A stretch of DNA of 39,208 bases, taken from assembly GCA_018816555.1 (NCBI GenBank), contig JAHIVT010000112.1, positions 1 to 39,208 on the forward strand. The letters run 5' to 3'. This document shows, piece after piece, positions 565 to 39,208 of this stretch. Made by a program: the position numbers and the translations under genes. A model generated the notes under the pieces. The model did not search any database, was not told the origin of the DNA, and saw only the letters and a list, made by a program, of their open reading frames with translations. Source of the DNA: Pseudomonadota bacterium. GTDB taxonomy: Bacteria; Desulfobacterota; Desulfobulbia; Desulfobulbales; SURF-16. Position 1 is the stretch's first letter; each line of letters begins with the position of its first letter.

Positions 565-3156
565 TTAATCCTGTCTCATTTGCTCTTCACGATCAGGCAA
601 GCCGTGTTCTTTGCGGTATCTTGGATCTTCTTCATCATCAATAACCTGCCACCCGAGTTTGGCAGCCATACCTTTGTTGAGTTTGCCTTCGGCGGTCATG
701 AGGCCGTTCTCCTTAAGCATTCCCCTGATGGCCCTGTTTGACGGGGTATCATCGCTGTAGCGGTTTTCAAACTCCCAGGCGCTGACATTATCCGCCGTGA
801 AGTGTGTGTTTTCCTGGATGGACTCATGTCCCTCAAATCCCTGGCGCAGGGCGCTGATGTGATAGGAGAAGACCACATCTCCGTATCGAGTTTCGGCTGA
901 ACGGATGATGACTTGGTCCACGGATTTTTCAGCCACATAGAGCGGGGCCCAGCCCTGCTCCGGGGTCACCGTCACAGTCAGGCTGTCTTCCGCCGCCGCC
1001 TGCTGCCAGGCCTCCGGCAGGTCGATAATCGCCTCGCCGTCGACGAGTTCGGAATTACCCCGGAGAAAGATGACATTTTCCGGGCTTTCCATGGACACAT
1101 AAACAATCTCTTTAGTGGGGTCATCCCGGTGGGGCTGGACAAAGGATTTGCTGACGGCCGACATTGTGCCGCCGATATAAACATTGCCGGAGAAATAGCC
1201 GGCATAGTTGCCGCCGCCGGATTTGTAGAAATAGCTGGCATATTTTGTGCCGGTGGTGTCGTTGTCGACATAAGCATAGATGCCAAAGAGGTAGCAGGTA
1301 TCACCTGTATAGCTTGTTGCAGAAAAAACGCCGCCATAGGCGGTTCCGCTGTTGCTGGCAGCGACATCAGTATAAACACCATAGGCATACCCTTCATTAC
1401 CGGAATGATCGACAAACGCCCTGTAACCATAAAGAGTCCCTGTTGCCGCGCCGGTTGTGTCAATGTCAACATAACCGCCATAGGCACTCGTGGTACTGTC
1501 GGTGCCGATTTCGGCGTAATAGCCGATCGCCGTGCCGTTGGTATTTTGCACCTGGGAATAGACTCCGTAATTGGTATAGGAGTTTGTCCCGGAGGTGATG
1601 ACCTTGTTGTAGAGTCCATAACGCCGGCCATTGGTGCCGATGGCCTCGCTGTAGAGACCGTAGGAGTAGCCTCCACTCCGGTGGTTATCGGCGATATAAT
1701 AGCCGCCAAAGGCATCACCTCCTGTGTCCCCGCTGCTTTTTACGGAAGATGCGTAGTAGCCGTAGGCGTCACCGGTGTTGCTGCCGGTAACCTGTGAATA
1801 GGAGCCGTAAACCGGGCCGGCTGTGCCGTAATGAAAGGCGTCGCTATACGAGCCGTAGACCGTGTTGGTGCTGTCCGAGCTGCTGGCGTAGGACCTGGAA
1901 TAGGTGCCATAGGCCGTTCCCAGGGATGAGACGCCGAGCAGAAAGCCGCCATAGGCCGGGCCGCCGATGCTGGCGTCGGAATAGGTGTTTGCGCCGTAGC
2001 TGTAAAGCCCGAATGAAGTTGCAGGGCCCGAGCCATAGGATGCCAGAGAGGCGCCGTAGGCCGTATAATCATTATGAACCTCGGAGCGGATGCCGTAACG
2101 GTGGTTGCTGCCGCCGGCGGTGTTATCAAGTGAATTGATGAATAAACCATAGGTGGTGCCGGCGTAGTTGCCGTCGTTTTCAAGCCAGGCGGCGGCGGAT
2201 CTGTTTGCTCCCATAACCGTCAGCGGATAGCCCGGGGTGGTGGTGCCGATGCCCACGTCGCCGTCAGCGTCCACAGAGAGGGCATTGGTTGGGGCGCCAT
2301 CCGAGGCGTTTAGAAAGGAATGCCAGTGGGAGGTGAGGGCAAAGGCGCTTGAGTCATTGCCGTCAAGGCGGTCGGCATCAAGTTTTGATCCCGCGCCGTC
2401 GTCATCCAGGATCTCGGCCAGGGTGGCGCCGTCGATCAGCATGCCCGAGGAGATGGAGGAAGCCTGGCCCTCGTTGACGTATCGGGAAGTAAGCGTTGAG
2501 GTTCCTTCATAGAGATTGGCGGCAACCCCGGAACGGCCGAAGTCACTGGCTGGCTGCAGGAAAGAGCCGGCATGCAGCCCGTCAAGGAGGTCGGCGTCAA
2601 GGCCTGAGCCCGAACCGTCATCATCAAGAATTTCCGCCAGGGCCGCGCCGTCAACCAGCATGGCGCCGGTTATTGATAACGGCTGGCCCTCATTGACATA
2701 GGTGGTGTCATGGTCGTGCCCCGCCTCGGCGAAATCAGTCGCCGCAAAGCCAGACAGGGTTTGGGCATCCTCCGCCACCATGGCGTAAGGGGTTGAGGTG
2801 AGCTTTTGTCTGGGGTCAAATACCTCCCATGTGGTTGTGTTTACATTATAGATTCGCACTTCAAGAAAAAGCTCTGTGGCAAACAGGCCGGACGGAAAGG
2901 CCACATCCTTGCCCAACTGGACATCGTAAATGCCGTTTGTCATTGTAACGGCCTGGGTTTCGTTCCAAAAGCAGGTGCCGCCGGTTACGGCATCACAGAG
3001 AAAGAACTGCATATTGAAGGTGCCGTTTAACGGCAATTCCGCGCTGTCGGTCAATTTGCCCTGGAAATTAATGTTTTGCGGAACCGCCAAAACCAGCTTG
3101 CAGCTGATCATGACGGAAAAGACGATAATTCCCGTAAATGACAACAGTCTTCTCAT
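565..3156 (-). CDS. Large secreted fibre-like protein with YG-containing repeats
   Basis: The 863-residue protein has a signal peptide (about 1-24, cleavage near VLA/VPQ; a weak lipobox-like MISC at 16-19 is also visible). Residues 27-130 form a globular N-terminal domain. Two tandem copies of a YVNEGQ...AEILDDDGxGSxLDAD unit follow (about 153-200 and 226-270), then a GIGTTTPGYPLTV motif (303-315) like those before tail-fibre repeats. Residues 335-655 hold about 20 imperfect repeats of 15-25 residues, each with a core such as YGLY, YGSY, YGYY or FGGY. A C-terminal domain begins near 671 (HRDDPTKEIVYVSMESPE) and resembles a tail found on other bacterial surface proteins. No catalytic motif was recognised. 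A trimeric or beta-solenoid surface fibre is the best inference. The 140-residue dockerin-loop protein lies directly downstream. Confidence 0.7.
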   Translation of the reverse strand: MRRLLSFTGIIVFSVMISCKLVLAVPQNINFQGKLTDSAELPLNGTFNMQFFLCDAVTGGTCFWNETQAVTMTNGIYDVQLGKDVAFPSGLFATELFLEVRIYNVNTTTWEVFDPRQKLTSTPYAMVAEDAQTLSGFAATDFAEAGHDHDTTYVNEGQPLSITGAMLVDGAALAEILDDDGSGSGLDADLLDGLHAGSFLQPASDFGRSGVAANLYEGTSTLTSRYVNEGQASSISSGMLIDGATLAEILDDDGAGSKLDADRLDGNDSSAFALTSHWHSFLNASDGAPTNALSVDADGDVGIGTTTPGYPLTVMGANRSAAAWLENDGNYAGTTYGLFINSLDNTAGGSNHRYGIRSEVHNDYTAYGASLASYGSGPATSFGLYSYGANTYSDASIGGPAYGGFLLGVSSLGTAYGTYSRSYASSSDSTNTVYGSYSDAFHYGTAGPVYGSYSQVTGSNTGDAYGYYASSVKSSGDTGGDAFGGYYIADNHRSGGYSYGLYSEAIGTNGRRYGLYNKVITSGTNSYTNYGVYSQVQNTNGTAIGYYAEIGTDSTTSAYGGYVDIDTTGAATGTLYGYRAFVDHSGNEGYAYGVYTDVAASNSGTAYGGVFSATSYTGDTCYLFGIYAYVDNDTTGTKYASYFYKSGGGNYAGYFSGNVYIGGTMSAVSKSFVQPHRDDPTKEIVYVSMESPENVIFLRGNSELVDGEAIIDLPEAWQQAAAEDSLTVTVTPEQGWAPLYVAEKSVDQVIIRSAETRYGDVVFSYHISALRQGFEGHESIQENTHFTADNVSAWEFENRYSDDTPSNRAIRGMLKENGLMTAEGKLNKGMAAKLGWQVIDDEEDPRYRKEHGLPDREEQMRQD

Positions 3157-3457
3157 TTTTCTCTCCCTTTTTTATTTTCACATTTGACCAACGGACAGGA
3201 GGTTTCTTGAAGGAAAAAAGACATTTTTATGCCCGAGTTTTTGTTCCCGGCAGGGCAAAAAAAATATCACAACGTATAGTATAAATGACATAGAAAACGC
3301 AGGCTGCGGAGAGGATTATTCCAGGAATATCATCAAGTTCGTAACGCAGCCTGTAAAACGCAAAAAACCGAGTAACCATCATGGCGACCCGGCTGGCTCT
3401 GAAAGCCCCGTGGCTTTCCGTCCCCACCTTGCAATGGGTTTGGCTTTGTCCGAAAGC

Positions 3458-4126: not shown

Positions 4127-4230
4127 GTTTACGGTTGGCGGTTTACAGTTTACAGTTTACGATCTACCAATATCAAAATCTGACAAGATAATTTCCTTCA
4201 ACTGCCAACTGTAAACCGTAAACCGTTAAC
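4127..4230. repeat. Inverted pair of 7-base tandem arrays (GTTTACR)
   Basis: Five 7-base units run forward at 4127-4161 (GTTTACG, GTTGGCG, GTTTACA, GTTTACA, GTTTACG). After a 39-base spacer, four units run on the opposite strand at 4201-4230 (GTTAACG, GTTTACG, GTTTACA, GTTGGCA read on the minus strand). The pair lies about 330 bases upstream of the biotin carboxylase gene. Units vary most at the last base and include a shared GTTGGC variant. Confidence 0.85.
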
Positions 4231-6078: not shown

Positions 6079-8001
6079 ATGGACCGAATTGTTCAAGGTA
6101 TGCATAGCAGTGAAGTTTTAAAAAGAGTACGCGAGGCGGAGGGCTATTTCATCACCAACACCGCCCGCGACCTGTCCCAGTCCGACTTCAAGAACCGGAT
6201 ACTGCTCCATACGGATCTGCTGGCCGCCGACGCCCGTGAGCGGGCCAATTATTTTTCCCTGGAAATCACCGGCGGCGCCTCGGTGCATGTGGATATTCTG
6301 CGCAAACAGGTAGATCCGTTCCTGAAGCTGAAACTGCTGCGGGAAAAGATGCCCAATACCATGTTTCAGACACTCTGCCGGGGAGTCAATCTCTTCGGCT
6401 ACCGGCCCTATCCCCAGAATGTCATCCGGCTGGTTGTGCGGGAGTTTGCCAAGTACGTGGATGTGTGGCGCGTGTTTGACTTCATGAATCACGTGCCGAA
6501 CATGCAGGCGGTTTTCGAGGAGGTGCAGATGTCGGGCAAGCTGTTGGAGCCCAGCATCTGTTTTTCCACCGGGCCGGAGCACACGGACGAATATTACGTG
6601 AAGAAGGTGGGCGAGATCATCGAGGTGACCGGCGAGGAGATCTCCCTCTGCATCAAGAACCATGGCGGACTCGGCACACCGAAACGGATCGGCGAGCTGG
6701 TGAAGGCCATCAGGGACAAATATTCGGATCTGGTTATTCATTACCATGGCCACAATACCGACGGCGATGATATCGGCCGGATCACTGCGGCGGTGGTGAA
6801 CGGCGCCAACATCGTGGATGCCGCTGATCATGCCTTTACCGGCTACTTCGGGCCGCCGCCGATTCTGAGCGTCATTCAGACCCTGAAGGACTATGGTCAT
6901 ACGGCTGTCGGTGTTGATGAGGCGGCGGTGATCGAAACTTCCGAGGTGCTGCGCGATCAGCGCCAGCATTACGAATATTTCGAGTCCCAGTTCAAAGGCT
7001 TCCTGCCCACGGTGCAGATTCATAAACTGCCCGGCGGGGCCATGGGCAGCAGCTTCGAGCAGGCGGTCAAGGGCGGCTTTCTCAATAAGATGTCCGAGAT
7101 CCTCCATGAGGAGCTTCCCAAGGTGCAGCGGGAACTGGGCAACTGGTGGAGTGTAACCCCCGGTTCCCAGATTCTCTGGACCACCGCGGTGAGCAATGTT
7201 CAGAGCGGTGAGAGGTACGGCAACTGCTCCGGGGATCTGAAAAATCTGCTGCTCGGCAAATACGGGCCTTTCCCCTTCTACCGTCCGGAAGACTGGATTT
7301 ACGAGAAGGCCTTCGGGCCGGATTGGCGGAAGATTGTCGCGGAGCAGGGCGGCGTTATGCAGATCGAGGATATGGACATTGACAAGGAGCGGTCGATTCT
7401 GCAGGACCGTCTCGGCTATGAGCCGACTACGCAGCAGCTGGTAACCTATCTCCAGCATCCCAATGATGCGGTTGATTTCTTCAAGTTTGAGGAAAAATTC
7501 GGCAAGGTTTATGTGCTGCCCCCTGCCTTGTTCTTCAAGCGCGGCGGGTTTACCCTGGGCGAGGCCCTGGAGTTCACCGACCATGACGGCAAAGAGCATG
7601 TCCTCGAGGTTGGTCCCCTGCACAAACATGAGGATGGTTCGACCAGCATCTATTTCAATGTGGACCATCACCAGCGGGTTTTCATTATGGCCGCCGAGGC
7701 GAAGGTGGAGGGTGCTGCCCAGGAAGTGACCCTGTCCAAGCAGGAAATTCAGGAGCTCGCCAAAATAGGTGATATCAGGGCACCCTTTGGCGCCAATGTC
7801 TGTGAGGTCAGTGTTGAAGTCGGACAGGAGGTTGCGGTGGGCGACAAACTGGTTGTGCTGGAGGCCATGAAAATGCAGACACCTGTCATGGCTGCCGTGG
7901 CCGGCAAGGTGGAAAAGATTGCTGCCAAAGTCGGTGACGCCGTAAAGGTGGGCGGCAAGGTTCTTAAGATCTCTTGCGCGGCGGATGGTTCAGGCAAGTA
8001 G
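6079..8001 (+). CDS. pycB: Divergent biotin-dependent carboxyltransferase with C-terminal biotinyl domain
   Basis: The 640-residue protein has an HMGL/DRE-TIM-like carboxyltransferase domain (about 20-320), a carboxylase-conserved region (to about 500) and a biotinyl domain (about 570-635) with EAMKMQ and biotin-lysine K598. Metal-site residues of the pyruvate carboxylase/oxaloacetate decarboxylase family appear kept: D31 in RDLSQS, K193 in CIKNHGGLG, and H223/H225 in HYHGHN. R101 in LCRGVNLFGY matches the keto-acid-binding arginine. Several usual signatures are changed, however: LEITGGASVHVD for ETWGGATFDV, KNH for KDM, and FGPPP for TSQP. The start has AAAGGAG upstream. Pairing with the upstream biotin carboxylase makes a two-subunit carboxylase. 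Pyruvate is the likeliest acceptor, but another 2-oxo acid or a decarboxylase role is possible. Confidence 0.75.
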   Translation: MDRIVQGMHSSEVLKRVREAEGYFITNTARDLSQSDFKNRILLHTDLLAADARERANYFSLEITGGASVHVDILRKQVDPFLKLKLLREKMPNTMFQTLCRGVNLFGYRPYPQNVIRLVVREFAKYVDVWRVFDFMNHVPNMQAVFEEVQMSGKLLEPSICFSTGPEHTDEYYVKKVGEIIEVTGEEISLCIKNHGGLGTPKRIGELVKAIRDKYSDLVIHYHGHNTDGDDIGRITAAVVNGANIVDAADHAFTGYFGPPPILSVIQTLKDYGHTAVGVDEAAVIETSEVLRDQRQHYEYFESQFKGFLPTVQIHKLPGGAMGSSFEQAVKGGFLNKMSEILHEELPKVQRELGNWWSVTPGSQILWTTAVSNVQSGERYGNCSGDLKNLLLGKYGPFPFYRPEDWIYEKAFGPDWRKIVAEQGGVMQIEDMDIDKERSILQDRLGYEPTTQQLVTYLQHPNDAVDFFKFEEKFGKVYVLPPALFFKRGGFTLGEALEFTDHDGKEHVLEVGPLHKHEDGSTSIYFNVDHHQRVFIMAAEAKVEGAAQEVTLSKQEIQELAKIGDIRAPFGANVCEVSVEVGQEVAVGDKLVVLEAMKMQTPVMAAVAGKVEKIAAKVGDAVKVGGKVLKISCAADGSGK

Positions 8002-8013
8002 AAGTGGAAAATG

Positions 8014-8063
8014 ATTTCACAGAGCACGCAGAGCGGTTAATTGGCACTGTGCGCTCTGTGAAA
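8014..8063. terminator. CACAGAG-type inverted repeat between convergent genes
   Basis: TTTCACAGAGCACGCAGAGC and GCACTGTGCGCTCTGTGAAA form an imperfect stem directly after the carboxylase operon, between two convergent genes, so it may act as a terminator in both directions. The arms belong to the CACAGAG 9-base family also seen at 26294-26378 and 35339-35415. No long U tract follows. Confidence 0.45.
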
Positions 8064-17477: not shown

Positions 17478-18647
17478 ATGACAGCGCGAAAATTCACCGT
17501 CACCCAACCCACCCAGATCCGGTTTGGCGTTGGCGCTATTAATGATCTGGCCCAGGCCGTCCAGGATCTGGGCGGCAAAAAGGTATTACTCGTTGTTGAC
17601 CCGAATCTCAAAGGCGTGGGCCTGCTTGGCAGCATAACCGGGCCGCTTGACACCAGTGGTGTGAAATATGAGATTTTTGATCATGTTGATCCGGAGCCGG
17701 GCCTGAAGCTGGCGGATGAGGGGACAGCCCTGGCCGCCAAAACAGGGTGTGACTGTGTCATCGGTGTGGGCGGCGGATCAGCCATGGATGTGGCCAAGGC
17801 CGTCAGCATCCTGCTCACCAACGGCGGCAAGGCGGAAGATTATCTGGGGCTTGGCAAGATCAAGAAACCCGGTGTACCCAAGATCATGGTGCCCACCACC
17901 GCCGGTACCGGGGCGGAAGTAACCTTTACCGCTGTTTTCATCAACGAGAAAACCAAAAGCAAAGGCGGCATGAACGGCGATCCTCTTTATCCGGATATTG
18001 CCGTGCTGGACCCTGCTCTTACCCTTACCCTGCCCAGGCAGGTGACCGCTGCCCCGGGTATCGACGCCTTCACCCATGCCCTGGAGGCCTTTGTCTCCAC
18101 CCAGTCTCATACCATCTCCGATATGTACGCCCTGGAGGCCATTTCGCTGATCAGCGGCAATCTGGCCATGGCCTATGCCAACGGCGGAAATCTTGAGGCC
18201 CGCACCGCCATGCTCATGGGCAGTCTGCTGGGCGGCAAGGCCCTGGCCACCGCCGGCGTGGGACTGGTCCATGCCATGGCCTACCCTCTGGGCGGCATGT
18301 TCAATATCCCCCATGGCCTGGCCAACGCGGTGTTGCTGCCCTTTGTGGTTGATTACAACATCATCGGCAATCCGGAAAAATTCGCCCGCGTTGCCGCTGT
18401 CATGGGCTATGATGTCGATGATCTGCCCCTGCGCGAGGCGGGCCAGGTAGCGGTTGAGGCGGTGTATGATCTTAACGGCGATGTGGAGATTCCCCGGAGC
18501 CTCGACGAACTCGGCATCCCGGCCGACCAGATTCCGGAAATGGCCCGCATCGCCCTGACCGTCACCCGGCCGGTGGAGAACAATCCCCGCAAGCCCAGCC
18601 TGGAGGATGTGATCCGGGTCTATGAGATTGCCCATAAGGGCTGGTAA
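17478..18647 (+). CDS. Iron-containing alcohol dehydrogenase (candidate KdnB)
   Basis: The 389-residue protein is a complete type III alcohol dehydrogenase. The NAD-binding loop GGGSAMDVAK is at 98-107, and the expected metal ligands are D196, H200, H265 and H279 (in GIDAFTH, HAMAYP and HGLANA). The start has AAAGGA upstream. The family covers alcohol, lactaldehyde and propanediol dehydrogenases, and also KdnB, which oxidises the 8-hydroxyl of Kdo. The next plus-strand gene resembles KdnA and the third is KdsB, so the 8-amino-Kdo role is plausible. The sequence alone does not fix the substrate. A 355-base repeat-filled gap separates it from the aminotransferase, so co-transcription is uncertain. 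Confidence 0.85.
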   Translation: MTARKFTVTQPTQIRFGVGAINDLAQAVQDLGGKKVLLVVDPNLKGVGLLGSITGPLDTSGVKYEIFDHVDPEPGLKLADEGTALAAKTGCDCVIGVGGGSAMDVAKAVSILLTNGGKAEDYLGLGKIKKPGVPKIMVPTTAGTGAEVTFTAVFINEKTKSKGGMNGDPLYPDIAVLDPALTLTLPRQVTAAPGIDAFTHALEAFVSTQSHTISDMYALEAISLISGNLAMAYANGGNLEARTAMLMGSLLGGKALATAGVGLVHAMAYPLGGMFNIPHGLANAVLLPFVVDYNIIGNPEKFARVAAVMGYDVDDLPLREAGQVAVEAVYDLNGDVEIPRSLDELGIPADQIPEMARIALTVTRPVENNPRKPSLEDVIRVYEIAHKGW

Positions 18648-18649
18648 AA

Positions 18650-18685
18650 AACTTGTCTTACAGGTCCAACTGGTCTGCTTGTCTA
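18650..18685 (-). repeat. 9-base tandem array, minus-strand half
   Basis: Read on the minus strand this stretch gives units AGACAAGC, AGACCAGTT, GGACCTGTA and AGACAAGTT. These are the same family as the forward array at 18904-18992. The two halves face each other across the REP palindrome pair. Confidence 0.7.
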
Positions 18686-18692
18686 ACTGATC

Positions 18693-18730
18693 AAAAGCGG
18701 GAACAATAATAACACGGTGTTTCCGCTTTT
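18693..18730 (+). terminator. Possible terminator hairpin after the alcohol dehydrogenase
   Basis: AAAAGCGGGAACA and TGTTTCCGCTTTT pair with one mismatch and end in TTTT. The hairpin lies 46 bases after the dehydrogenase stop. Half of it (AAGCGGGAACAA) is also found beside the REP copy at 3484, so it may instead belong to the repeat. Confidence 0.4.
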
Positions 18731-18743
18731 GAAAGTTTCGGGG

Positions 18744-18813
18744 GTAGGAGCGGGCCTTGCCCGCGATAACGGCTTTCGCCATGACAAAGGTCGCGGGCAA
18801 GGCCCGCTCCTAC
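18744..18813. repeat. REP-like palindrome pair (REPIN), copy 2
   Basis: Perfect 23-base inverted arms lie at 18744-18766 and 18791-18813 and differ from copy 1 at one position per arm (CTTG for CATG). The loop matches the loop of copy 1 only when one of them is reverse-complemented (CCTTTG...CGTTA). The outer flanks (GAAAGTT left, GCAGGAAG right) match in direct orientation. The core therefore appears inverted relative to copy 1. Confidence 0.85.
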
Positions 18814-18903
18814 CGCAGGAAGATAGATCAGTTAGCTGAATATGCGACCCGAGCCGTCATTACGGGCAAGCGAAGCGCGACCCGAAATCCATTGTGACTC
18901 TTC

Positions 18904-18992
18904 GGACCAGCAAGACTAGTAAGACTAACCAGACCAATAAGACTAACCGACAAGTAATACCAGTCGGACCAATAAGACCAGTAAGGCCAATA
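18904..18992 (+). repeat. 9-base tandem array (AGACCAATA-like), forward half
   Basis: About ten degenerate 9-base units run from 18904 to 18992 (GGACCAGCA, AGACTAGTA, AGACTAACC, AGACCAATA, AGACTAACC, then one 8-base slip, then GGACCAATA, AGACCAGTA, AGGCCAATA). The final unit runs directly into GGAG, the ribosome-binding site of the aminotransferase gene. Confidence 0.85.
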
Positions 18993-19002
18993 GGAGAAAA
19001 GC

Positions 19003-20205
19003 ATGCCAGGTTTTGAGGTTTTTGGAGAGGAAGAGAAAAAAGAGATTCTGGAGGTGCTGGATACCGGCGTCCTCTTTCGCTATGAGTTTCCCGAGCAGCG
19101 GCGCGGGGTTTACAAGGTCCGCACCTTTGAAGAAAATTTTGCCCGCTACTGCGGGGTGAAGCATGCCCAGGCCGTCACCTCGGGTACCTCGGCCCTGAAG
19201 GTTGCCCTGACCGCTTTGGGCGTTGGGCCGGGAGACGAGGTGATCACCCAGTGTTTCACCTTTGTCGCCACCTGGGAGGCGATTTTTGACGTGGGCGCGG
19301 TGCCGGTCTTTGCCGAAGTGGACGAAACACTGAACATGGACCCCAATGATCTGGAGAAAAAGATCACCAGTCGGACCAAATGCATTGTCCCGGTGCACAT
19401 GCTGGGAGCACAGGCCCGCATCAGAGAGATCAAGGCCATTGCCGACAGACACAACATCCCGGTGCTGGAAGACACTGCCCAGGCAGCAGGCGGCTCGCTT
19501 GACGGCAAACGGCTGGGGACATTCGGGGCCTGCGGCACCTTTTCCTTTGACGCGGTGAAGACCATGACCACCGGGGAAGGCGGCATGATCATCACCGATG
19601 ACGAGAAGCTGTGGCGCGACATGTCCGAATACCATGATCACGGCCATGACCATGTGCCGAACCCGGGCACCCGGGGAGGCGAGGGCCGCAATTTCATCGG
19701 CTTTAACTTCCGTATGATGGAACTGCAGGGCGCCATCGGCATCGCCCAGCTGGCCAAACTGGATGACATGATCAGCAGCCAGAAGAAGAACAAGGCGGCA
19801 TTGAAGGCGGCCATCGCCAAAATAAAGGGCGTGACCTTCCGCACCATTCTCGATGAACAGGGTGATTCCGCGACCTTTATCGGCTTTTTCCTGCCTGACG
19901 GTGCCAAGGCCAAGGCGGTGAACGCCGTGCTTGCCGCAAACGGCGCGGGCGCCATTGCCTTTGGTGCCAATACCTGGCATTTTTATCCCAAATGGGAGCA
20001 TCTGCTGGCCGGCTCCACTCTGGCCAAATCAGGCTGGCCCTTTGCCGGTCCTGACGGCAAGCGCCGGGTGGTCTATGACAAGGACGCCCTGCCTGTCTCC
20101 GCCGCCCTGATGGACCGCTTGCTGGTGTACCAGGTTCCGGTGAAACTCTCAGAGCAGCGGCTGGCCCAGATGGTTGCCGCCTTGGACAAGGCGGCACAGA
20201 TTTGA
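19003..20205 (+). CDS. kdnA: DegT-family PLP aminotransferase, KdnA-like (8-amino-Kdo synthesis)
   Basis: The 400-residue protein is a DegT/DnrJ/EryC1/StrS aminotransferase. SGTSAL (60-65) is the phosphate-binding loop, D157 lies in LEDTAQA, and K186 in FSFDAVKTMTTGEGG is the PLP lysine. The opening MPGFEVFGEEEKKEI, the FRYEF segment and the DHGHDHV motif near 208-216 resemble, from memory, Shewanella KdnA. KdnA aminates 8-oxo-Kdo to 8-amino-Kdo. An iron dehydrogenase upstream (KdnB class) and kdsB downstream agree with that. AGGAG lies just before the start. Other sugar aminotransferases of this family are the alternative. Confidence 0.78.
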   Translation: MPGFEVFGEEEKKEILEVLDTGVLFRYEFPEQRRGVYKVRTFEENFARYCGVKHAQAVTSGTSALKVALTALGVGPGDEVITQCFTFVATWEAIFDVGAVPVFAEVDETLNMDPNDLEKKITSRTKCIVPVHMLGAQARIREIKAIADRHNIPVLEDTAQAAGGSLDGKRLGTFGACGTFSFDAVKTMTTGEGGMIITDDEKLWRDMSEYHDHGHDHVPNPGTRGGEGRNFIGFNFRMMELQGAIGIAQLAKLDDMISSQKKNKAALKAAIAKIKGVTFRTILDEQGDSATFIGFFLPDGAKAKAVNAVLAANGAGAIAFGANTWHFYPKWEHLLAGSTLAKSGWPFAGPDGKRRVVYDKDALPVSAALMDRLLVYQVPVKLSEQRLAQMVAALDKAAQI

Positions 20206-20208
20206 GGG

Positions 20209-20288
20209 AATGTTCCAACGTTTAAGCGTTCCAGCGTTCTAACGTTCTAACGTTTAAGCGTTTAAACGTTGGATCGCTTAAACGGTTT
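20209..20288. repeat. 8-base tandem array (AACGTTNN), array 1
   Basis: Ten consecutive 8-base units with no slip fill the gap between two convergent genes: AATGTTCC, AACGTTTA, AGCGTTCC, AGCGTTCT, AACGTTCT, AACGTTTA, AGCGTTTA, AACGTTGG, ATCGCTTA, AACGGTTT. The six-base core is palindromic, and the last two bases vary freely. The array begins three bases after the aminotransferase stop and ends at the rsmJ stop codon. Confidence 0.9.
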
Positions 20289-21071
20289 TCACCCCAGGTA
20301 GATGTCAAACCGGCTGTTTTTGCCGTTGATGACAAAGGCAGGTTTTCTGTCGTCCAGGGTGGGCGCCCCTTGGGGGCGTTTGACCACCACTCTTACCCCC
20401 TGATGGCTGAGCGCCCAGTCAAGCAGCAGGCAGGCGTCGCTATCGTCGCCCACCAGGGCGCGGACCAGGCGCATCTCCTTTTTGACCAGGGCGCTTTTGC
20501 TGCGGTGCGGGTACATGGGGTCCAGATAGATGACATCCGGAGCCGGGGCAAGGTGGTTCAGGGTCAGGCAGTCGGCATGGATGATCCGCATGCGGGCAAC
20601 AATGGCTGCCAGTTCCGGGTCCCGGGCTGCCCGCGCCAGACCGTCTTCCAGCAGGGCGGCGATAATGGCTGAACGTTCCACCAGCAGCACCCGGCAGCCG
20701 AGGCTTGCCAGGATGAAGCTGTCCCGGCCGAGTCCGGCGGTGGCGTCAAGCACCGAGGGGCAGCGGTTGGCCTTGAGCCCCACCGCCCGTGCCAGGGCCT
20801 CTTTCCTGCCGCCGCCGAATTGTCTTCTGTAGCGCAGGGCGCCACTGGTGAAATCGACAAAAACCGGACCAGGGGCATGGGCGTCTGTCTGCCTCAGCTC
20901 CAGTCTGTCGCCGGTCACGGCCAGCAGAAAATCGCAGGCCCCCATATCCCCCAGGACCGGGATTGTCAGTTGGGCTGCCAGCTTTTCCGCCTGGTCTTTA
21001 TGTTGGTCATCCTCACAGACCAGGGCGATTTTTGCGGTTGTCTCAGGCATTGGGGCTTTGGCTGTTTGCAC
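20289..21071 (-). CDS. rsmJ: 16S rRNA m2G1516 methyltransferase RsmJ
   Basis: The 260-residue protein fits the RsmJ (YhiQ) family. FGGGRKEALARAVGLK at about 85-100, the SAM-site LDATAGLGRDSF (108-119), and the YLDPMYPHRSKSALVKKEM motif near 184-202 are characteristic. The tail carries VVVKRPQGAP. The enzyme methylates G1516 of 16S rRNA. The reading frame opens with GTG at 21071, and an ATG seven codons later may be the true start. Neither has a clear ribosome-binding site. It lies opposite to, and between, the kdnA-like and kdsB genes, and AACGTTNN arrays bound this two-gene block. Confidence 0.9.
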   Translation of the reverse strand: MQTAKAPMPETTAKIALVCEDDQHKDQAEKLAAQLTIPVLGDMGACDFLLAVTGDRLELRQTDAHAPGPVFVDFTSGALRYRRQFGGGRKEALARAVGLKANRCPSVLDATAGLGRDSFILASLGCRVLLVERSAIIAALLEDGLARAARDPELAAIVARMRIIHADCLTLNHLAPAPDVIYLDPMYPHRSKSALVKKEMRLVRALVGDDSDACLLLDWALSHQGVRVVVKRPQGAPTLDDRKPAFVINGKNSRFDIYLG

Positions 21072-21133: not shown

Positions 21134-21901
21134 ATGGACTTACAACATAAGCTGGAACCCAAAGTGGTGGCCATTATCCCGGCCCGCTATTACTCTAATC
21201 GGTTTGAGGGAAAACCTTTAGCGAAAATTAAGGGCAAGCCGATGATTCAGCATGTCTATGAGCGTGCCATGGAGGCGCCTATCCTTTCCCGGGTGGCGGT
21301 GGCCACCGATGATGAGCGCATTGCCGACTGTATCCGCAGTTTTGGCGGCGAGGTTGTCATGACCCGCCCTGATCATGCCTCGGGCACCGACAGGCTGGCG
21401 GAGGCAGCGTCCCTTATGGATGTGCCGGAGCAGGATGTGGTGGTGAACATCCAGGGGGATCAGCCGCTTTTTCCGGTGGAGGTGGTGGAGCAGGTGGCAC
21501 GGCCCCTGCTCGATGATCCGGCCCTGCCCATGGCCACCCTGATCTATCAGATCATCCGCAAGGAGGAGATCGATGACCCCAATCATGTCAAAACGGTTTT
21601 TGACCGCCATGGCATGGCGCTCTATTTTTCCCGGGCATCCATCCCCTACCAGCGGGACCCTGAGCATCCGCCACCACCGACCTATTATAAACACCTGGGC
21701 TTCTATGCCTACCGCAAGGGCTTTCTGCTCACCTTTGTCAGTCTGCCGGAAGGGGAGTGGGAGCGTTTTGAAAAGCTTGAGCAGCTCAGGGCTCTGGAAT
21801 ACGGTTACCGGATCAAGGTGGTGCTGACCGAGCATGATTCCATTGAGGTGGATACGCCCAAGGATCTGGCTCGGGTGGAGGAGATGTTGAAAAACGTTTG
21901 A
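21134..21901 (+). CDS. kdsB: 3-deoxy-manno-octulosonate cytidylyltransferase (KdsB)
   Basis: The 255-residue protein is a KdsB-family nucleotidyltransferase that makes CMP-Kdo or CMP-8-amino-Kdo from CTP. It has VVAIIPARYYSNRFEGKPLA (11-30), GKPMIQHVYERA (34-45), VATDD (about 57-61), NIQGDQPL (near 107-114) and the final HDSIEVDTPKDLARVE. The RYYSNRFEG loop is slightly off the usual RYGSTRLPG form. No ribosome-binding site is visible ahead of the ATG; a TATATT sits just upstream, so a short leader is possible. Its position next to kdnA suggests it is the 8-amino-Kdo-activating form, which cannot be proven from sequence. Confidence 0.88.
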   Translation: MDLQHKLEPKVVAIIPARYYSNRFEGKPLAKIKGKPMIQHVYERAMEAPILSRVAVATDDERIADCIRSFGGEVVMTRPDHASGTDRLAEAASLMDVPEQDVVVNIQGDQPLFPVEVVEQVARPLLDDPALPMATLIYQIIRKEEIDDPNHVKTVFDRHGMALYFSRASIPYQRDPEHPPPPTYYKHLGFYAYRKGFLLTFVSLPEGEWERFEKLEQLRALEYGYRIKVVLTEHDSIEVDTPKDLARVEEMLKNV

Positions 21902-21980
21902 GCGCTCAAACGCTTAAACGCTGGAACGTTGAAACGTTGGAACGCTATCATGCTGAAACGTTTAAACGTTGAAACGATTA
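21893..21980. repeat. 8-base tandem array (AACGTTNN), array 2
   Basis: Eleven 8-base units without a slip run from inside the last codons of kdsB to just before the mdh ribosome-binding site: AACGTTTG, AGCGCTCA, AACGCTTA, AACGCTGG, AACGTTGA, AACGTTGG, AACGCTAT, CATGCTGA, AACGTTTA, AACGTTGA, AACGATTA. The stop codon of kdsB lies within the first two units. Confidence 0.9.
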
Positions 21981-21998
21981 ACTAAAAAGGAAATGATA

Positions 21999-22925
21999 AT
22001 GCGTAATAAAGTAACGATTATAGGTGCGGGAAATGTAGGGGCCACGGCGGCCCATTGGGCTGCCAGCCGCAGGCTCGGTGATATTGTGCTGCTTGATGTG
22101 GTGGAGGGCGTGCCCCAGGGCAAGGCCCTTGATCTGCTGCAGGCCGGGCCGGTTGACGGCTTTTCCGGCCGCATCACCGGCAGCAATGATTATGCCGATT
22201 CCGCCGGTTCCGATGTGGTCATCATTACCGCAGGTCTTGCCCGCAAGCCGGGCATGTCCCGCGATGATCTGCTGGCCAAGAACGTGGCCATCGTCAAATC
22301 ATGCGCGGAGAACGCGGCCAAGCATTCTCCCAACGCCGTGCTCATCGTGGTGACCAACCCCATCGACGCCATGGTCTATACCGCCTTCAAGGTATCGGGA
22401 TTTCCTAAAAACAGGGTGGTGGGCATGGCAGGCGTGCTGGATTCGGCCCGTTACCGCACCTTCCTGGCCGAGGCCCTGGGGGTTGCCCCCCGGGATGTCA
22501 ATGCCATGGTCATGGGCATCCACGGCGATAACATGCTGCCCCTGGTGCGGCTGGCCAATGTGGCCGGCATCCCGGTCACCGATCTGCTGGACGAAGATCA
22601 GTTGGCCGCCATTGTCACACGCACCCAGCATGGCGGCGCCGAGATCGTCAATCATCTGAAAACCGGCTCCGCCTTTTATACGCCGGGTCTGGCTGCCGTG
22701 GAAATGGCCGAGGCCATTTTGACCGACAGCAAGCGGGTGCTGCCCTGCGCCGCCTATGTGGAAGGGGAGTTCGGTGTCTCCGGCTGTTTTCTCGGCGTAC
22801 CGGTTGTTCTGGGCTCCGGCGGGGTGGAAAGGATTGTGGAATTTGCCCTGACCGACGATGAAAAGAAGGCCCTGGCCGAATCCGAGGTTGCCGTGCGCAA
22901 GCAGATGGCAGCCACCGGCCTGTAA
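21999..22925 (+). CDS. mdh: Malate dehydrogenase (NAD-dependent, LDH-like class)
   Basis: The 308-residue protein interconverts malate and oxaloacetate. GAGNVGATA (9-17) is the NAD loop, D33 favours NAD over NADP, R82 and R88 in ARKPGMSR plus R151 in LDSARYR bind the dicarboxylate, D148 pairs with the catalytic H175 in MGIHGDNM. R82 instead of Gln is what separates malate from lactate enzymes. ATG at 21999 is chosen because AAAAAGGA lies about eight bases before it. An in-frame ATG at 21993 is too close to it, and a TTG at 21969 falls inside the tandem array. Together with the biotin carboxylase pair, the window supplies both oxaloacetate formation and its reduction. Confidence 0.93.
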
Positions 22926-26224: not shown

Positions 26225-26293
26225 GCCTCTCATTTTTTCTGCCAAAAGTTGATGGTCTCGTATTTATGCCCCTTGTGGGTAAAAAGTCTTTTT

Positions 26294-26378
26294 TCACCAC
26301 GGAGCACACAGAGATCACAGAGAACGTTTTTATTATAATCAGTTAGCTCTGTGGGCTCTATGCTCTCTGTGGTAACTT
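26294..26378. repeat. Inverted pair of 9-base CACAGAGNN arrays
   Basis: Forward units CACGGAGCA, CACAGAGAT, CACAGAGAA lie at about 26297-26324. Reverse units (CTCTGTGGG, CTCTATG, CTCTCTGTGG) lie at about 26346-26373 with a T/A-rich spacer. Related copies are at 8014-8063 and 35339-35415. Confidence 0.8.
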
Positions 26379-26384
26379 TTCAGT

Positions 26385-26460
26385 TTTTACGAAGTCATCA
26401 ATTTTATCGCGCCATTTCTTGACATTTCGTAATTTTTTCCCCCACTATATAACTGCGGCC
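26385..26460 (+). promoter_or_regulatory. Upstream region of the hybrid kinase with TTGACA
   Basis: TTGACA (26419-26424) is followed by TATATA about 21 bases on, a poor spacing; CACTAT at 18 bases is the alternative. TTACGAA (near 26388) and TTTCGTAA (near 26425) form an inverted repeat around it. It is a weak promoter candidate for the kinase gene about 100 bases further on. Confidence 0.3.
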
Positions 26461-29500: not shown

Positions 29501-30023
29501 GGCCGTGGTTCATGGCATCGTGCAGAGCCACCACGGGCATATCTCGGTCTTCAGCGAGTTGGGCAAGGGAACCACCTTTCATGTCTATCTGCCCTGCGTG
29601 GCCATGGAGACCTGCGCAACGGAAACGGAAAACGAGGGAGCCATACCCAGGGGCCATGAGCGGATTCTGGTGGTGGATGATGAAGAGGAAATCATCAGCC
29701 TTTCACGGCAGATACTTGAGGGTCTCGGTTACAAGGTGACCGCTCTAACCGGCAGTATCGATGCCTGGCAGGCCTTCAGCAGTCATCCCCAGGACTATGA
29801 CCTGGTCATCACCGATATGACCATGCCCGATATGACCGGCGCGGAACTGGCGGTGAAAATTTTTGGCCTCAGGCCGGACATGCCCATTGTGCTGTGCACC
29901 GGTTTCAGTGAGCAGATCAGTGAGGAAAAGGCAAAATCGCTGGGGATCAAGGCCTATATCACCAAGCCTGTTCTCAGAAACGATTTTGCCATGGTGGTCA
30001 GGAGGACGCTGGACGAGGCTTAG
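26532..30023 (+). CDS. Hybrid sensor histidine kinase with two periplasmic SBP_bac_3 domains
   Basis: Domains in order over 1163 residues: signal/membrane segment (about 13-38), first SBP_bac_3 domain (about 80-315), second SBP_bac_3 domain (about 333-570), membrane segment (about 577-597), coiled linker, PAS (about 650-775), HisKA with H803 in GGIAHDFNNIL, HATPase (about 895-1020, DTGPGIRPE, FEPYFTTK, GTGMGLA) and REC (about 1045-1160) with D1095 in VITDMTMPDM and the K of YITKPV. It should sense small polar solutes in the periplasm, as amino-acid-type binding domains do. No separate response regulator or transporter lies next to it, so output may pass through its own REC to a distant partner. 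Its stop overlaps the convergent thi4 stop by four bases. Confidence 0.92.
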   Translation: MTSTEKAPCGSTLQLLLLILWMQLVAPFSFFPMAATAQAGNPSADQAVQHDMGAENSPPPDRATQAPVAADKGREYRGRVMLTPAEQQWLASHPVITLAVDEGYPPKNFRNSAGVIDGINIDFIRLLAEKLGITIQFAGSTWPEALQKAMGHQVDGIVNAEMLEERRPFLNFTDACVIYPLALVTRQGEQVIRSLADFGGHKIAVKKSSAKLAILVQKYPRVEAVQVDTLNEAFNLLIEQKVDGVFDDATVLYYHIAENFLQNLKFAYIQTDDHIGHSRIGLRNDGPELLSIFNKAIASITDAERRQIQRKWLDIDLQQGRIFQMEHLPAFTAEEFAWLKAHPVIKVASDPAWAPIEFVDEHGEYQGFAIDYLQRLSDLLGISFEIEKGKTWQELVSQVKNRELDMFSCLTLTPARKAFVNFTRPYLSFPIVIFTRKDMSYAGKLDDLAGQKVAVVESYAIHDLLRANHPELDIVPVKTVSDGLKMLDNSQVTALAGNLLTVSYYITQQGFANIKVGGETPYKNEMSLAVRSDWPEFVSILQKALDAVSEEDKAGLYRKWVLLTYNERKVDYSLLFKVLAGVIVLFAAFLYWNRRLAREVNTRRKAEECLRQHQQELQNIVAAKTKDLTESNQRLQAEIEDRRKAYEELHKVEARHSLILRSLPMAFYIARPADTYGGVWVSGQIEKISGFTAEPFINDPDFWEARLHPEDRSQVLKVFDSIIAEKVVMVEYRWLHADGAYRWFEDNAILVRDGNGDPKEIVGIWLDITESKVAEEERMRLGEQLQQAQKMESIGTLAGGIAHDFNNILSAIIGYAELVKQRLTKDSEIWIFQQQVIRAGMRARDLVQQILAFSRQAPQEYKPLKIHIFVKEALKLLRSTIPTTIEIRQDINPHCGTIMADPTQIHQIMMNLCTNAYQAMRDTGGVLTVGLGEVEVRVDDYLAGLHLTPGRYVRLDVSDTGPGIRPEIKNRIFEPYFTTKDKGEGTGMGLAVVHGIVQSHHGHISVFSELGKGTTFHVYLPCVAMETCATETENEGAIPRGHERILVVDDEEEIISLSRQILEGLGYKVTALTGSIDAWQAFSSHPQDYDLVITDMTMPDMTGAELAVKIFGLRPDMPIVLCTGFSEQISEEKAKSLGIKAYITKPVLRNDFAMVVRRTLDEA

Positions 30024-30790
30024 AGCTTTTTGAGGATCTCCGTTGCCGCCTTCTGGCCGGACAGCAGCATGCCGCCGAAGACCGGCCCCATGCGATAGCC
30101 GCCGCAGACCGTGTTGGCGGCCATGCCGCTGACAAACAGGCCGGGGTAAACCTCCCGGGTGTTCTCCACCGTCTGCATCTCGCCTTTTTCCGCATTCATC
30201 GATTTCTCGCCGACAATGCCGCCGGTTTGGGTATCGAGTTTCACCCCCATCTTGCGCACCAGCACCTCGGCGACGTTGGCCGGATGACCGGTGGAGTCAA
30301 TGACAAATTTGCTGTGGATCACCAGGGGGTCAACCGGCCAGTCCAAGGTGGCAACAGCACCCCAGTTGAGCACCAGCCCACCCACTCGGTCATCCTTGAT
30401 GACCACATCCTCCATGGCCACCAGATTAAAGATCGTCAGACCTGCATCCATGGCCCGCTGGGTCAGGCTGCTGGCGAGATAAACCGCATCCACGGTGTAA
30501 TAGCCGTCGGTAAAGGTCCGGGCCGGGATATGGAATTCATCAAGCAGGGCTTTGCCCGCCTCCTGCACAACCACTTCATTAAACATCATGCCGCCGGCCC
30601 AGACGCCGCCGCCTATGGAGAGTTTCTTCTCAAACAGGGCAACCTTGTGCCCGGCGCGGGCAAGATAACAGCCGGCCACCAGACCGGAGGGACCGCCGCC
30701 GACAATGGCCACATCCAGCTCAAGGTTTGCCGTGAGTTTCCGGCAGTAGGTTTCGATAATGGCTTTTGAGATCTGTACTTCGTTTAACAT
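30020..30790 (-). CDS. thi4: Thi4-family thiazole synthase
   Basis: The 256-residue protein belongs to the prokaryotic Thi4 family, which makes the thiazole moiety of thiamine from NAD, glycine and a sulfur source. DVAIVGGGPSGLVAG (26-40) is the dinucleotide loop. EKKLSIGGGVWAGGM (54-68), DSTGHPANV (about 165-173) and GGYRMGPVFGGML near the end are typical. In the suicidal yeast enzyme a Cys, and in archaeal sulfide-using enzymes a His, precede the xDP motif. Here this residue appears to be P152 (DWPVDPL). ATG at 30790 is chosen because GGAGG is placed just upstream; a longer frame would run into the riboswitch terminator. A TPP riboswitch lies upstream, consistent with thiamine synthesis. 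Confidence 0.92.
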   Translation of the reverse strand: MLNEVQISKAIIETYCRKLTANLELDVAIVGGGPSGLVAGCYLARAGHKVALFEKKLSIGGGVWAGGMMFNEVVVQEAGKALLDEFHIPARTFTDGYYTVDAVYLASSLTQRAMDAGLTIFNLVAMEDVVIKDDRVGGLVLNWGAVATLDWPVDPLVIHSKFVIDSTGHPANVAEVLVRKMGVKLDTQTGGIVGEKSMNAEKGEMQTVENTREVYPGLFVSGMAANTVCGGYRMGPVFGGMLLSGQKAATEILKKL

Positions 30791-30842
30791 GTATACCTCC
30801 GTAAACGTTTCGGTTTGAGAGGTGGCGACAGGGGGCCTGAAA

Positions 30843-30877
30843 AAGAAAAAACGCCATTTCTGCACTGAAATGACGTT
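30843..30877 (-). terminator. Rho-independent terminator of the TPP riboswitch
   Basis: On the minus strand ACGTCATTTC and GAAATGGCGT form a ten-base-pair stem with a six-base loop and are followed by TTTTTTCTTTTT. It lies between the aptamer and the thi4 start, as expected for control by early termination. Confidence 0.85.
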
Positions 30878-30897
30878 GGTCTATCATTTTTATGAAA

Positions 30898-30970
30898 ATG
30901 CTCCCTCCGCCGGTACGATCCGGATCAGGTTCAAAGGGTATAATCTCAGGCCCAACGGCCACCCCCGCGA
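30898..30970 (-). promoter_or_regulatory. TPP riboswitch (THI element)
   Basis: Read on the minus strand, the stretch has the conserved GGGGGTG start, the CCTGAGATTATACCC core, the CTTTGAACCTGATC box and a closing ACCGGCGGAGGGAG. Spacing and order match the TPP aptamer. It controls thi4 through the terminator immediately downstream. Confidence 0.95.
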
Positions 30971-30979
30971 TATGGTTCT

Positions 30980-35318: not shown

Positions 35319-35338
35319 TAAGGAGCTTATTTACGAAA

Positions 35339-35415
35339 GAAAGCACAGAGCCCAAGGCGTTGACAGACTGCAATAAAAATATTTCTCTGTGATCTCTGTG
35401 TGCTCTGCGGTGAAA
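35339..35415. repeat. CACAGAG-family inverted repeat
   Basis: GAAAGCACAGAGCCC (left) and TTTCTCTGTGATCTCTGTGT plus GCTCTGCGGTGAAAA (right) are the same family as at 26294. The repeat fills the gap between convergent genes, where it might also act as a terminator. Confidence 0.7.
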
Positions 35416-38639: not shown

Positions 38640-39208
38640 TAAAGCGGATACCCCAATTTATTAAATTAACTCCGTCCGCCATCCCCCCATCCCCGCAATC
38701 TATTCATAGCCCTTCTTGGGACAGCGAGGATCTGAACTTGTATATGGGCAAGTAATAGGATCGCAATTGTCACAATTAGGTCCATCCTTATCATCAATGC
38801 TGCTTGCAGTACCTGATCCGCCCAGAGCAGATAAGCCACTTAAAAATCCTATAGATAAGCCAAATAAAAATCCTATGTAGTAAAACAAGAAACCTGTATT
38901 CGGCCTGCCAATTATTTGGATATCGGTGAATACAGAAATTCTTATTAATGACATTACCCATGAAATCAAATTTGCGATCAATGAAAATGGGGAAATGATT
39001 CCATGCCAGATACCACTGAAGAATCCATAAGGATCAGAGTAGGTCGCTGGTGTATAGTGTTGCGCACACAGCAATTCCCAGAGTGCCCGGAAATGCAGTA
39101 ATAGCTTAGTTGTTTAAAATTGGTTTCGTAAACTTTTTTAAATTTTTTACCCAAATTAAAATTTTTCTTGACATATCAATAAGATAGCGATTTTCACCTT
39201 TTATAAGC
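38640..39208. other. AT-rich right edge
   Basis: Base composition drops clearly after 38640 compared with the rest of the window. The last 134 bases hold no gene and no clear motif. A TTGACA near 39169 faces out of the window. Confidence 0.5.
38700..39074 (-). CDS. Small membrane protein, lipoprotein-like, N-terminus uncertain
   Basis: The protein (about 124 residues) has CAQHYTPATYSDPYGFFSG near its start, then two or three hydrophobic segments (about 25-50 and 65-85) and a Cys-rich end. Related small proteins, from memory, carry a signal peptide ending in such a Cys. Here only TTG at 39074 opens the frame and nothing upstream to the stop codon gives a proper signal sequence or ribosome-binding site. 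It may be broken at its 5' end. The surroundings are AT-rich and next to a transposase remnant, which suggests recent transfer. Confidence 0.45.
   Translation of the reverse strand: MLCAQHYTPATYSDPYGFFSGIWHGIISPFSLIANLISWVMSLIRISVFTDIQIIGRPNTGFLFYYIGFLFGLSIGFLSGLSALGGSGTASSIDDKDGPNCDNCDPITCPYTSSDPRCPKKGYE

Follow-up and report, generated by a model that had tools for sequence, protein, structure and literature searches.

Tandem arrays of 7-9-base units in facing and single layouts, and their turnover at orthologous gaps, in a Desulfobulbales genome and its relatives

Results

Repeat arrays in the window

The DNA analysed here (the window) is an entire contig of 39,208 nucleotides (JAHIVT010000112.1; contig C169 in our numbering) from a Desulfobulbales genome (GCA_018816555.1; 4.93 Mb, 183 contigs). 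Gene borders were taken from simple ORF calls (at least 100 codons) and not from a gene finder. The window was scanned by lag matching at periods 5-15 with a score of at least 13. Only five segments rose above this threshold, at 4127-4167, 4199-4230, 18905-18946, 20209-20270, and 21903-21981; five third-order Markov sequences per period, scanned in the same way as the null, gave none. The copies of the CACAGAG family and the left GGTC arm described below were too short to reach the threshold; the short array at 26298-26371 was accepted because of its dispersed copies and the left GGTC arm because of its orthologues. All four array families named in a preliminary description of this DNA were confirmed at their places by direct reading. 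Their degenerate units stand head to tail, above chance and in gaps, so that the 7-9-base arrays qualify as short tandem repeats of the SSR or STRR type. The units had been called strictly periodic; periodicity was indeed observed, but steps off by one base and missing units occur. When eight stretches of the window were folded as RNA and compared with shuffles, five gave z values from -4.3 to -6.9. The window also contains a c-di-GMP-I-GGC riboswitch (3379-3453, minus strand) upstream of ORF 565-3156, which itself matches a chimeric trimeric fibre family below the cut-off, a TPP riboswitch (30885-30976, minus strand) upstream of ORF 30020-30865, and a 24-base unit in two tandem copies (38829-38876).

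The GTTTACR heptamer array at 4127-4167 (plus strand), seen by direct reading and in the lag scan, is faced by a YGTAAAC heptamer array at 4199-4230 (plus strand), and the two arms fold together with a z of -6.3. Copies of 4148-4230, spacer included, were found in contigs C60 and C34, a nearly complete copy in C29, and a copy extending up to 4208 in C1, with 75-95% identity; two further contigs match only within the array and not in the spacer. Because the copies have the central spacer in common, this family is also dispersed as whole elements.

Two arms of nonamers, referred to as the GACCA family, occupy the gap between ORFs 17478-18647 and 19003-20205. The first arm, a GGTCYNAYT array at 18655-18689 (plus strand), lies just 3' of the stop codon of the former and was established by reading and by its orthologues, and the second, a GACYARTAA array at 18905-18992 (plus strand) supported by the lag scan and orthologues, extends to the likely ribosome-binding site of the latter. 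Folded separately, the two halves gave z values of +0.3 and -0.3. A REP-like doublet, GTAGGAGCGGGC...GCCCGCTCCTAC, lies between the arms at 18744-18813. This motif also occurs on either side of a Y1 transposase match elsewhere in the genome, at locus L082 (motif at 1294 and 2067), with which it perhaps forms a cognate pair; no array is present at that locus. Mobilisation of the arrays by Y1 transposases (RAYT) was rejected as a candidate, as no array of period 7-9 (score 11) was found at any of the six Y1 loci of this genome. The stretch GTCATTACGGGCAAGCGAAGCGCGACCCGAAATCC at 18856-18890 has a similar counterpart in the same gap of relative G004 and looks like another dispersed repeat.

The AACGTT family is represented by two unstranded arrays of the octamer AACGTTNN, whose unit is palindromic. 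One (20209-20288; folding z, -6.9) fills the gap between the convergent ORFs 19003-20205 and 20289-21071, and the other (21893-21981; z, -4.3) contains the stop codon of ORF 21134-21901.

The fourth family consists of short copies with one to three units per arm, of which two out of three fold well. Facing CACAGAG and CTCTGTG units lie at 8018-8060 (plus strand; z, -6.7), directly 3' of ORF 6079-8001; relative G001 has a copy in the same gap, and the flanks fail to align with the dispersed element of this family. That element is MITE-like and is represented at 26248-26401 (minus strand; z, -5.9), with dispersed copies, the core CACAGAGNN..CTCTGTGNN at 26298-26371, and imperfect, TTTGATGRACTCGTAAAAAGTC-like ends. 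A degenerate copy of it, recognised by alignment, lies at 35344-35409 (plus strand), where one CACAGAG unit faces three CTCTGTGNN-type units (z of -0.7 for 35335-35415). The element measures approximately 145 bases, has imperfect terminal inverted repeats, and is present in tens of copies in this genome (G000) and in relatives G001 and G002. When 20 of the own-genome matches listed were aligned, TTTGATGRACTCGTAAAAAGTC-like ends were common to most copies by eye, and some copies were without them. In its terminal inverted repeats and dispersed copies, the family is MITE-like. Furthermore, the element is present in a gap of G002 that measures 55-62 bases in G000, G001, and G004. The end pattern with up to three mismatches gave no match inside the window, indicating that the window copy has imperfect ends. 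The strict end pattern gave 10 end matches in the genome, none at transposon length and including one inverted pair on one contig approximately 120 bases apart; a full-length parent transposon was thus not found with this pattern.

Turnover at orthologous gaps

Six gaps (A-F) were compared with those of relatives G001-G005, G011, and G018 through their conserved coding flanks. Species rather than strains were compared; the genus comprises six genomes including G000, G003 is a congener, and L054 represents another genus of the same family. Unit number or family differed between species at all six gaps. The change of unit number for which close strains were to be compared, according to the preliminary description, was seen between congeners (species, not strains).

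At gap A (18648-19002), the left and right GACCA arms hold 2 and 9 units in G000 by strict count, 3 and 9 in G001, 9 and 19 in G002, 4 and 16 in G004, and 3 and 11 in G005, with approximately two units in G011 and none in G018. The REP-like doublet lies between the arms in four of the five genus alleles (all but G005). At gap B (20206-20288), five genomes have AACGTT arrays; in G005 the DNA there is unrelated, and in G018 the gap is only 3 bases long. AACGTT arrays were found at gap C (21890-22000) in six genomes; in L054, facing GGCACAGA arrays stand there instead, before the malate dehydrogenase gene. Gap C of G018 is 297 bases long and carries, in place of the octamer array, an inverted element with TAGGTTGGGTTAA...TTAACCCAACCTAC halves.

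Gap D lies between proB and proA. Three families, two of which form facing pairs, occupy it in five species of the genus. G000 has a degenerate single AAGGCAW-like array (fewer than three units by strict count), G001 and G004 have facing RAGTGAG-type arrays, G002 and G005 have facing GGCTCAT arrays, between which G002 has a central AGGCAAT array, and G003 has no array. At gap E, between proA and nadD, RAGTCAG arms were found in four genomes, in G002 together with a central facing GTTTAC pair, and the gaps of G003 and G005 after proA measure 21 and 25 bases and are array-free. Gap F lies further along; AAGGCAW arms occur there in G000 and G002, whose place is taken by RAGTGAG-type units in G004 and by a mixture in G001. 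Array-free alleles thus occur in G003, G005, or G018, and an additional element occupies the arm-flanked centre at gaps A, D, and E. Different units use identical slots across species. A search of the open-access literature returned no paper on one family replacing another at an orthologous gap.

Other families and their distribution

Further families were sought in 663,101 bases of the same genome, the window included; contigs C29, C34, C60, and C94 of this sample were chosen for GTTTACR matches, and C1 and C15 also have such matches. Intergenic heptamer arrays of AAGGCAW, RAGTCAG-like, and GGCTCAT units were found, together with GGATTGC arrays that lay within ORFs of the crude ORF mask. A Markov copy of the whole sample gave one match, of period 6. 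Scanning stretches of the seven relatives brought in RAGTGAG and other units; in those of G003 and G018, no named family scored. An array of six perfect GCTCATG units at L026 (6196-6238) looks like a very recent expansion. The claim that many families have one layout was borne out by AAGGCAW, RAGTCAG, RAGTGAG, GGCTCAT, and GGATTGC in the genome or its relatives and by facing partners in excess of two controls (see below).

The families are patchily distributed. Runs of three GACYARYAR units and runs of three and a half AACGYTNN units were each found in 7 of 58 genomes, both times including five of the six genus genomes and not G003, with zero matches of the reversed control. Of the 395 phylum genomes surveyed, 30 had four RGCTSAT units (reversed control, 2), 14 had four RRGGCAW units (control, 5), and 4 had four GTTKACR units (control, 0). 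Five RAGTSAG units were found in at least 117 stretches of public genomes, and the hosts among the matches listed included many Cyanobacteria as well as Bacteroidota, Acidobacteria, Gammaproteobacteria, Clostridia, and Verrucomicrobia. Among 20 blindly drawn stretches from 14 genomes (400 kb in total), there were only two intergenic arrays, both of the same genome. In the passages of PMC4060949 concerned, longer-unit tandem repeats of prokaryotes are mostly normally or weakly over-represented, in line with dense arrays not being universal.

These distributions bear on the possibility that the arrays are paired binding sites for nucleoid-associated or global regulator proteins (IHF/HU combinations), with the facing orientation serving binding or looping. 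The anatomy equals that of the opposite-strand pairs at variable distance in passages of PMC2700814, and units recur within a genome although the spacers of GACCA arrays differ between loci by eye. However, close species lack, gain, or swap families at orthologous gaps, the families are patchy in the surveys above, and divergent, promoter-bearing gaps hold few arrays. Regulator sites would accordingly be an improbable common basis in our estimate. Before paired sites of such a kind are given this reading, an experiment is called for.

Facing layout and growth of the arms

An array with a non-palindromic unit was regarded as facing when a reverse-complement array lay within 300 bases; arrays with palindromic units were dropped (9, 38, and 17), and the unit reversed without complementing and random windows served as controls. 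These controls took the place of a plain reversed-unit pattern for RAGTSAG, which was flawed because GASTGAR matches RAGTSAG arrays in another phase. Opposite-strand partners were found for 28 of the 42 arrays of the genome and its relatives (controls, 2 and 2), for 21 of 79 in the phylum set (controls, 4 and 2), and for 52 of 269 among the matches listed of the cross-phylum set (controls, 24 and 16). The last set was drawn from the at least 117 RAGTSAG matches with a single purine-rich query; Cyanobacteria are prominent in it, and some genomes contribute several loci. Facing is a strong feature close to this species and a clear one in the phylum; elsewhere it is modest, and single arrays are common. 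The description of the arrays as mostly facing thus holds among the relatives and fails outside them, where facing pairs are in the minority.

Growth of the arrays was examined in those with at least six units and three variants. The resemblance between neighbouring units exceeded that under shuffling (z below -1.65) in 12 of 33 arrays of the relatives, 31 of 49 of the phylum set, and 85 of 137 of the cross-phylum set (matches listed), and the likeness was gone by the fourth neighbour, where the mean z was no longer negative. The likeness of adjacent units indicates local unit duplication of the slippage type; lag-based detection may add somewhat to the first-neighbour likeness and less to the second. 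Next to this, the order of variant units was compared between the two arms, with 80 of the at least 117 cross-phylum loci used for this test and for that of arm order. None of 49 facing pairs showed mirror order at p<0.05 against shuffled unit order; the mean z was -0.06 over 38 informative pairs, the other 11 being without variation under shuffling. Mirror order fitted better than reversed order in 7 pairs, worse in 16, and equally in 26. Maintenance of the arms as mirror copies, by quasi-palindrome correction or hairpin selection, was accordingly rejected (0 of 49 pairs), with the power of the test limited by the likeness of the units. The arms have the unit in common and not the unit order, as expected if they have long been parted and have grown separately.

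A layout without any common process, in which ordinary slippage of chance tandem seeds and ordinary mobile elements coincide, would account for part of these observations. Slippage alone suffices for tandem growth, the GTTTACR and CACAGAG families lie within dispersed elements, and the cross-phylum excess of facing partners is modest. Coincidence is weakened by the 28 facing partners against 2 in the controls among the relatives and by the presence of one unit in many gaps of one genome and its absence from most relatives, and we regard it as improbable.

Position and strand

For stop-side arrays of the relatives and the cross-phylum set (matches listed), the median distance from the stop codon was 5 nt, and 97 of 164 lay within 10 nt. 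Arrays were present in 8% of divergent gaps and in 23-28% of other gaps. An own-phylum replicate gave a median of 3 nt, 27 of 40 stop-side arrays within 10 nt, and arrays in 19% of divergent against 29-38% of other gaps.

The position behind stop codons would fit an RNA or terminator function, in which transcription is stopped, or the mRNA protected, by a 3'-end hairpin of the facing arms and any folding sequence is selected. Consistent with this, folding was much stronger than in shuffles for five of the eight stretches of the window. Variable positions, however, lack mirror order between the arms, and 217 of 269 cross-phylum arrays (matches listed) and 58 of 79 phylum arrays are without a detected facing partner. 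In addition, arrays lie within the conserved co-directional run obgE-proB-proA-nadD, and G003 and G005 manage with the short array-free gaps after proA. A hairpin function as the general cause is therefore unlikely.

The strand of the arrays was counted leaving out those with a GC skew within 0.1, those in ORFs, and those without an ORF on both sides. Stop-side arrays of the relatives and the cross-phylum set (matches listed) were G-rich in the sense strand in a ratio of 112:36, against 223:201 for background stop flanks. The ratio was 76:21 for single arrays, 41:10 without RAGTSAG-like units, and 15:6 for the relatives alone, and was similar in co-directional (64:21) and convergent (48:15) gaps; by unit clusters, 36 were mainly G, 7 mainly C, and 2 tied. 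Start-side arrays were G-rich in sense in a ratio of 27:47, and single ones showed no bias (22:29). Within facing pairs of the same material, the G-rich arm came first in 52 of 62, with 8 against and 2 at zero, and in 18 of 18 for RAGTSAG units alone. By gap, 22 of the 62 pairs were cleanly co-directional, 10 convergent, and 2 divergent, the remainder lying at edges or having an ORF inside. The G-rich arm came first in 16 of 24 pairs of an own-phylum set (7 against, 1 zero) and in 11 of 17 of overlapping 3-kb loci of the phylum (5 against, 1 zero), from which 6 duplicate and 4 own-genus loci had been removed; by unit orientation with duplicates still in, 7 pairs were unit-first and 6 reverse-first. 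The stop-side sense-G ratio was 13:12 for the 3-kb loci and 20:13 (p 0.30) for the other own-phylum replicate. The G-rich arm coming first was therefore rejected as a general law, being strong in the mixed cross-phylum sample and not significant in the own-phylum replicates. The strand rule may be confined to certain lineages or to units rich in G; moreover, loci within one genome are not independent.

Such a bias would be expected from transcription-coupled generation, in which ribosome-free RNA after the stop codon forms an R-loop, the G-richer sense strand is exposed, slippage seeds arrays there, and convergent genes yield facing pairs. The excess over the background flanks, its similar size in co-directional and convergent gaps, and the same side preference of the GGGNATC-type heptamers in passages of PMC4692102 point in this direction. 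Against it stand the own-phylum ratios, the origin of the first sample in one purine-rich, Cyanobacteria-rich query with several loci per genome, and the unbiased single start-side arrays; moreover, it leaves the facing pairs in the 22 clean co-directional gaps unexplained. We consider this mechanism distinctly unlikely as the shared cause.

Discussion

The arrays are best explained, at a probability that we place just short of an even chance, as fold-back short tandem repeats, that is, lineage-specific families of 7-9-base units in the few permissive places of a compact genome, above all directly after stop codons. Each facing pair would begin as one fold-back event, either when a strand folds back on itself and its array is copied or when a hairpin element inserts, and slippage within each arm would later erase the mirror order. 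The arrays would lengthen through local duplication, move in part as complete elements, and succeed one another in permissive gaps behind stop codons, and the unit vocabulary common within a genome would come from copying between gaps. Since no fold-back was observed under way and mirror order was absent from all the pairs tested, the founding fold-back step is one that we infer, and we give it, like any single common process, about even odds. The modest cross-phylum excess and the single-armed proB-proA allele of G000 make the fold-back explanation slightly weaker and raise the reading without a common process. The fold-back explanation requires no function, and individual arrays may carry one.

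A common generating process, as the preliminary description had proposed, is hinted at by layout and turnover, but a single one for all four families was not shown, because the CACAGAG and GTTTACR families are partly cores of dispersed elements and have spread as such. For the GACCA and AACGTT families, by eye, no terminal inverted repeats or fixed ends were recognised in orthologous gaps and no spacer was common to different loci; whole-element copying does not explain the arrival of their units at new gaps.

A bolder form, one directional process across bacteria in which arrays are born at gene 3' ends with the G-richer strand pointing away, gain a facing arm, and later give way to new, unrelated units at the same site, appears unlikely; if it were true, intergenic DNA would be under constant rewriting with a shifting set of 7-9-base words. 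If a shared process of any kind holds, it would supply bacteria with new intergenic DNA that annotation mostly passes over, and the proB-proA gap offers a concrete place for studying array turnover.

REP/BIME elements and MITEs are dispersed inverted intergenic elements, and the cyanobacterial repeats named STRR are tandem heptamers. The former have counterparts here in the CACAGAG family within its MITE-like element and in the REP-like doublet between the GACCA arms; unlike them, the GACCA and AACGTT arrays have variable unit numbers and, by eye, no fixed ends. In passages of PMC4692102, which cites three tandem heptanucleotides in Calothrix, the heptamers GGGNATC and GGGGAYT of Xanthomonas and Nostoc lie on the coding strand near stops and on the other strand near starts. 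They are intergenic and variable in unit number, as here, but are explained there by G-quadruplexes, which is impossible for the window units; G-quadruplexes were rejected as a common cause because the four window families are without four tracts of at least three G. According to parts of PMC4679880, TAACTGA heptamers of Beggiatoaceae, Cyanobacteria, and Bacteroidetes occupy many gaps, are patchy over phyla, and reach up to 43 copies; unlike the present arrays, those of Maribeggiatoa form 169 direct sets and one indirect set, mostly just 5' of starts. According to passages of PMC2996986, 12% of the intergenic regions in G. bemidjiensis contain multicopy sequences, among them families of direct repeats 6 to 42 bases long; such sequences are mentioned for Pelobacter carbinolicus in an extract of PMC3543383.

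The closest precedent is Geobacter metallireducens, for which the relevant passages of PMC2700814 (2009) describe three classes (1-3) of predicted global regulator binding sites on opposite strands, composed of four tandem octamers GTTGCTYN, three tandem TCTCCGTS[Y] units, or five tandem heptamers MTYCTGA. Classes 1 and 2 are paired at variable distance, IHF/HU binding is proposed, and the sites are called unique to that genome. Two of these units resemble the CACAGAG/CACGGAG and RAGTCAG families, and the arrays described here are likewise tandem units paired on opposite strands at variable distance. Those passages contain neither a comparison of orthologous gaps nor a test of unit order, both of which were made here. 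The layout with several unrelated units is already in print for Geobacter, so that the present observation is real and partly known, with the mechanism being what we infer from it.
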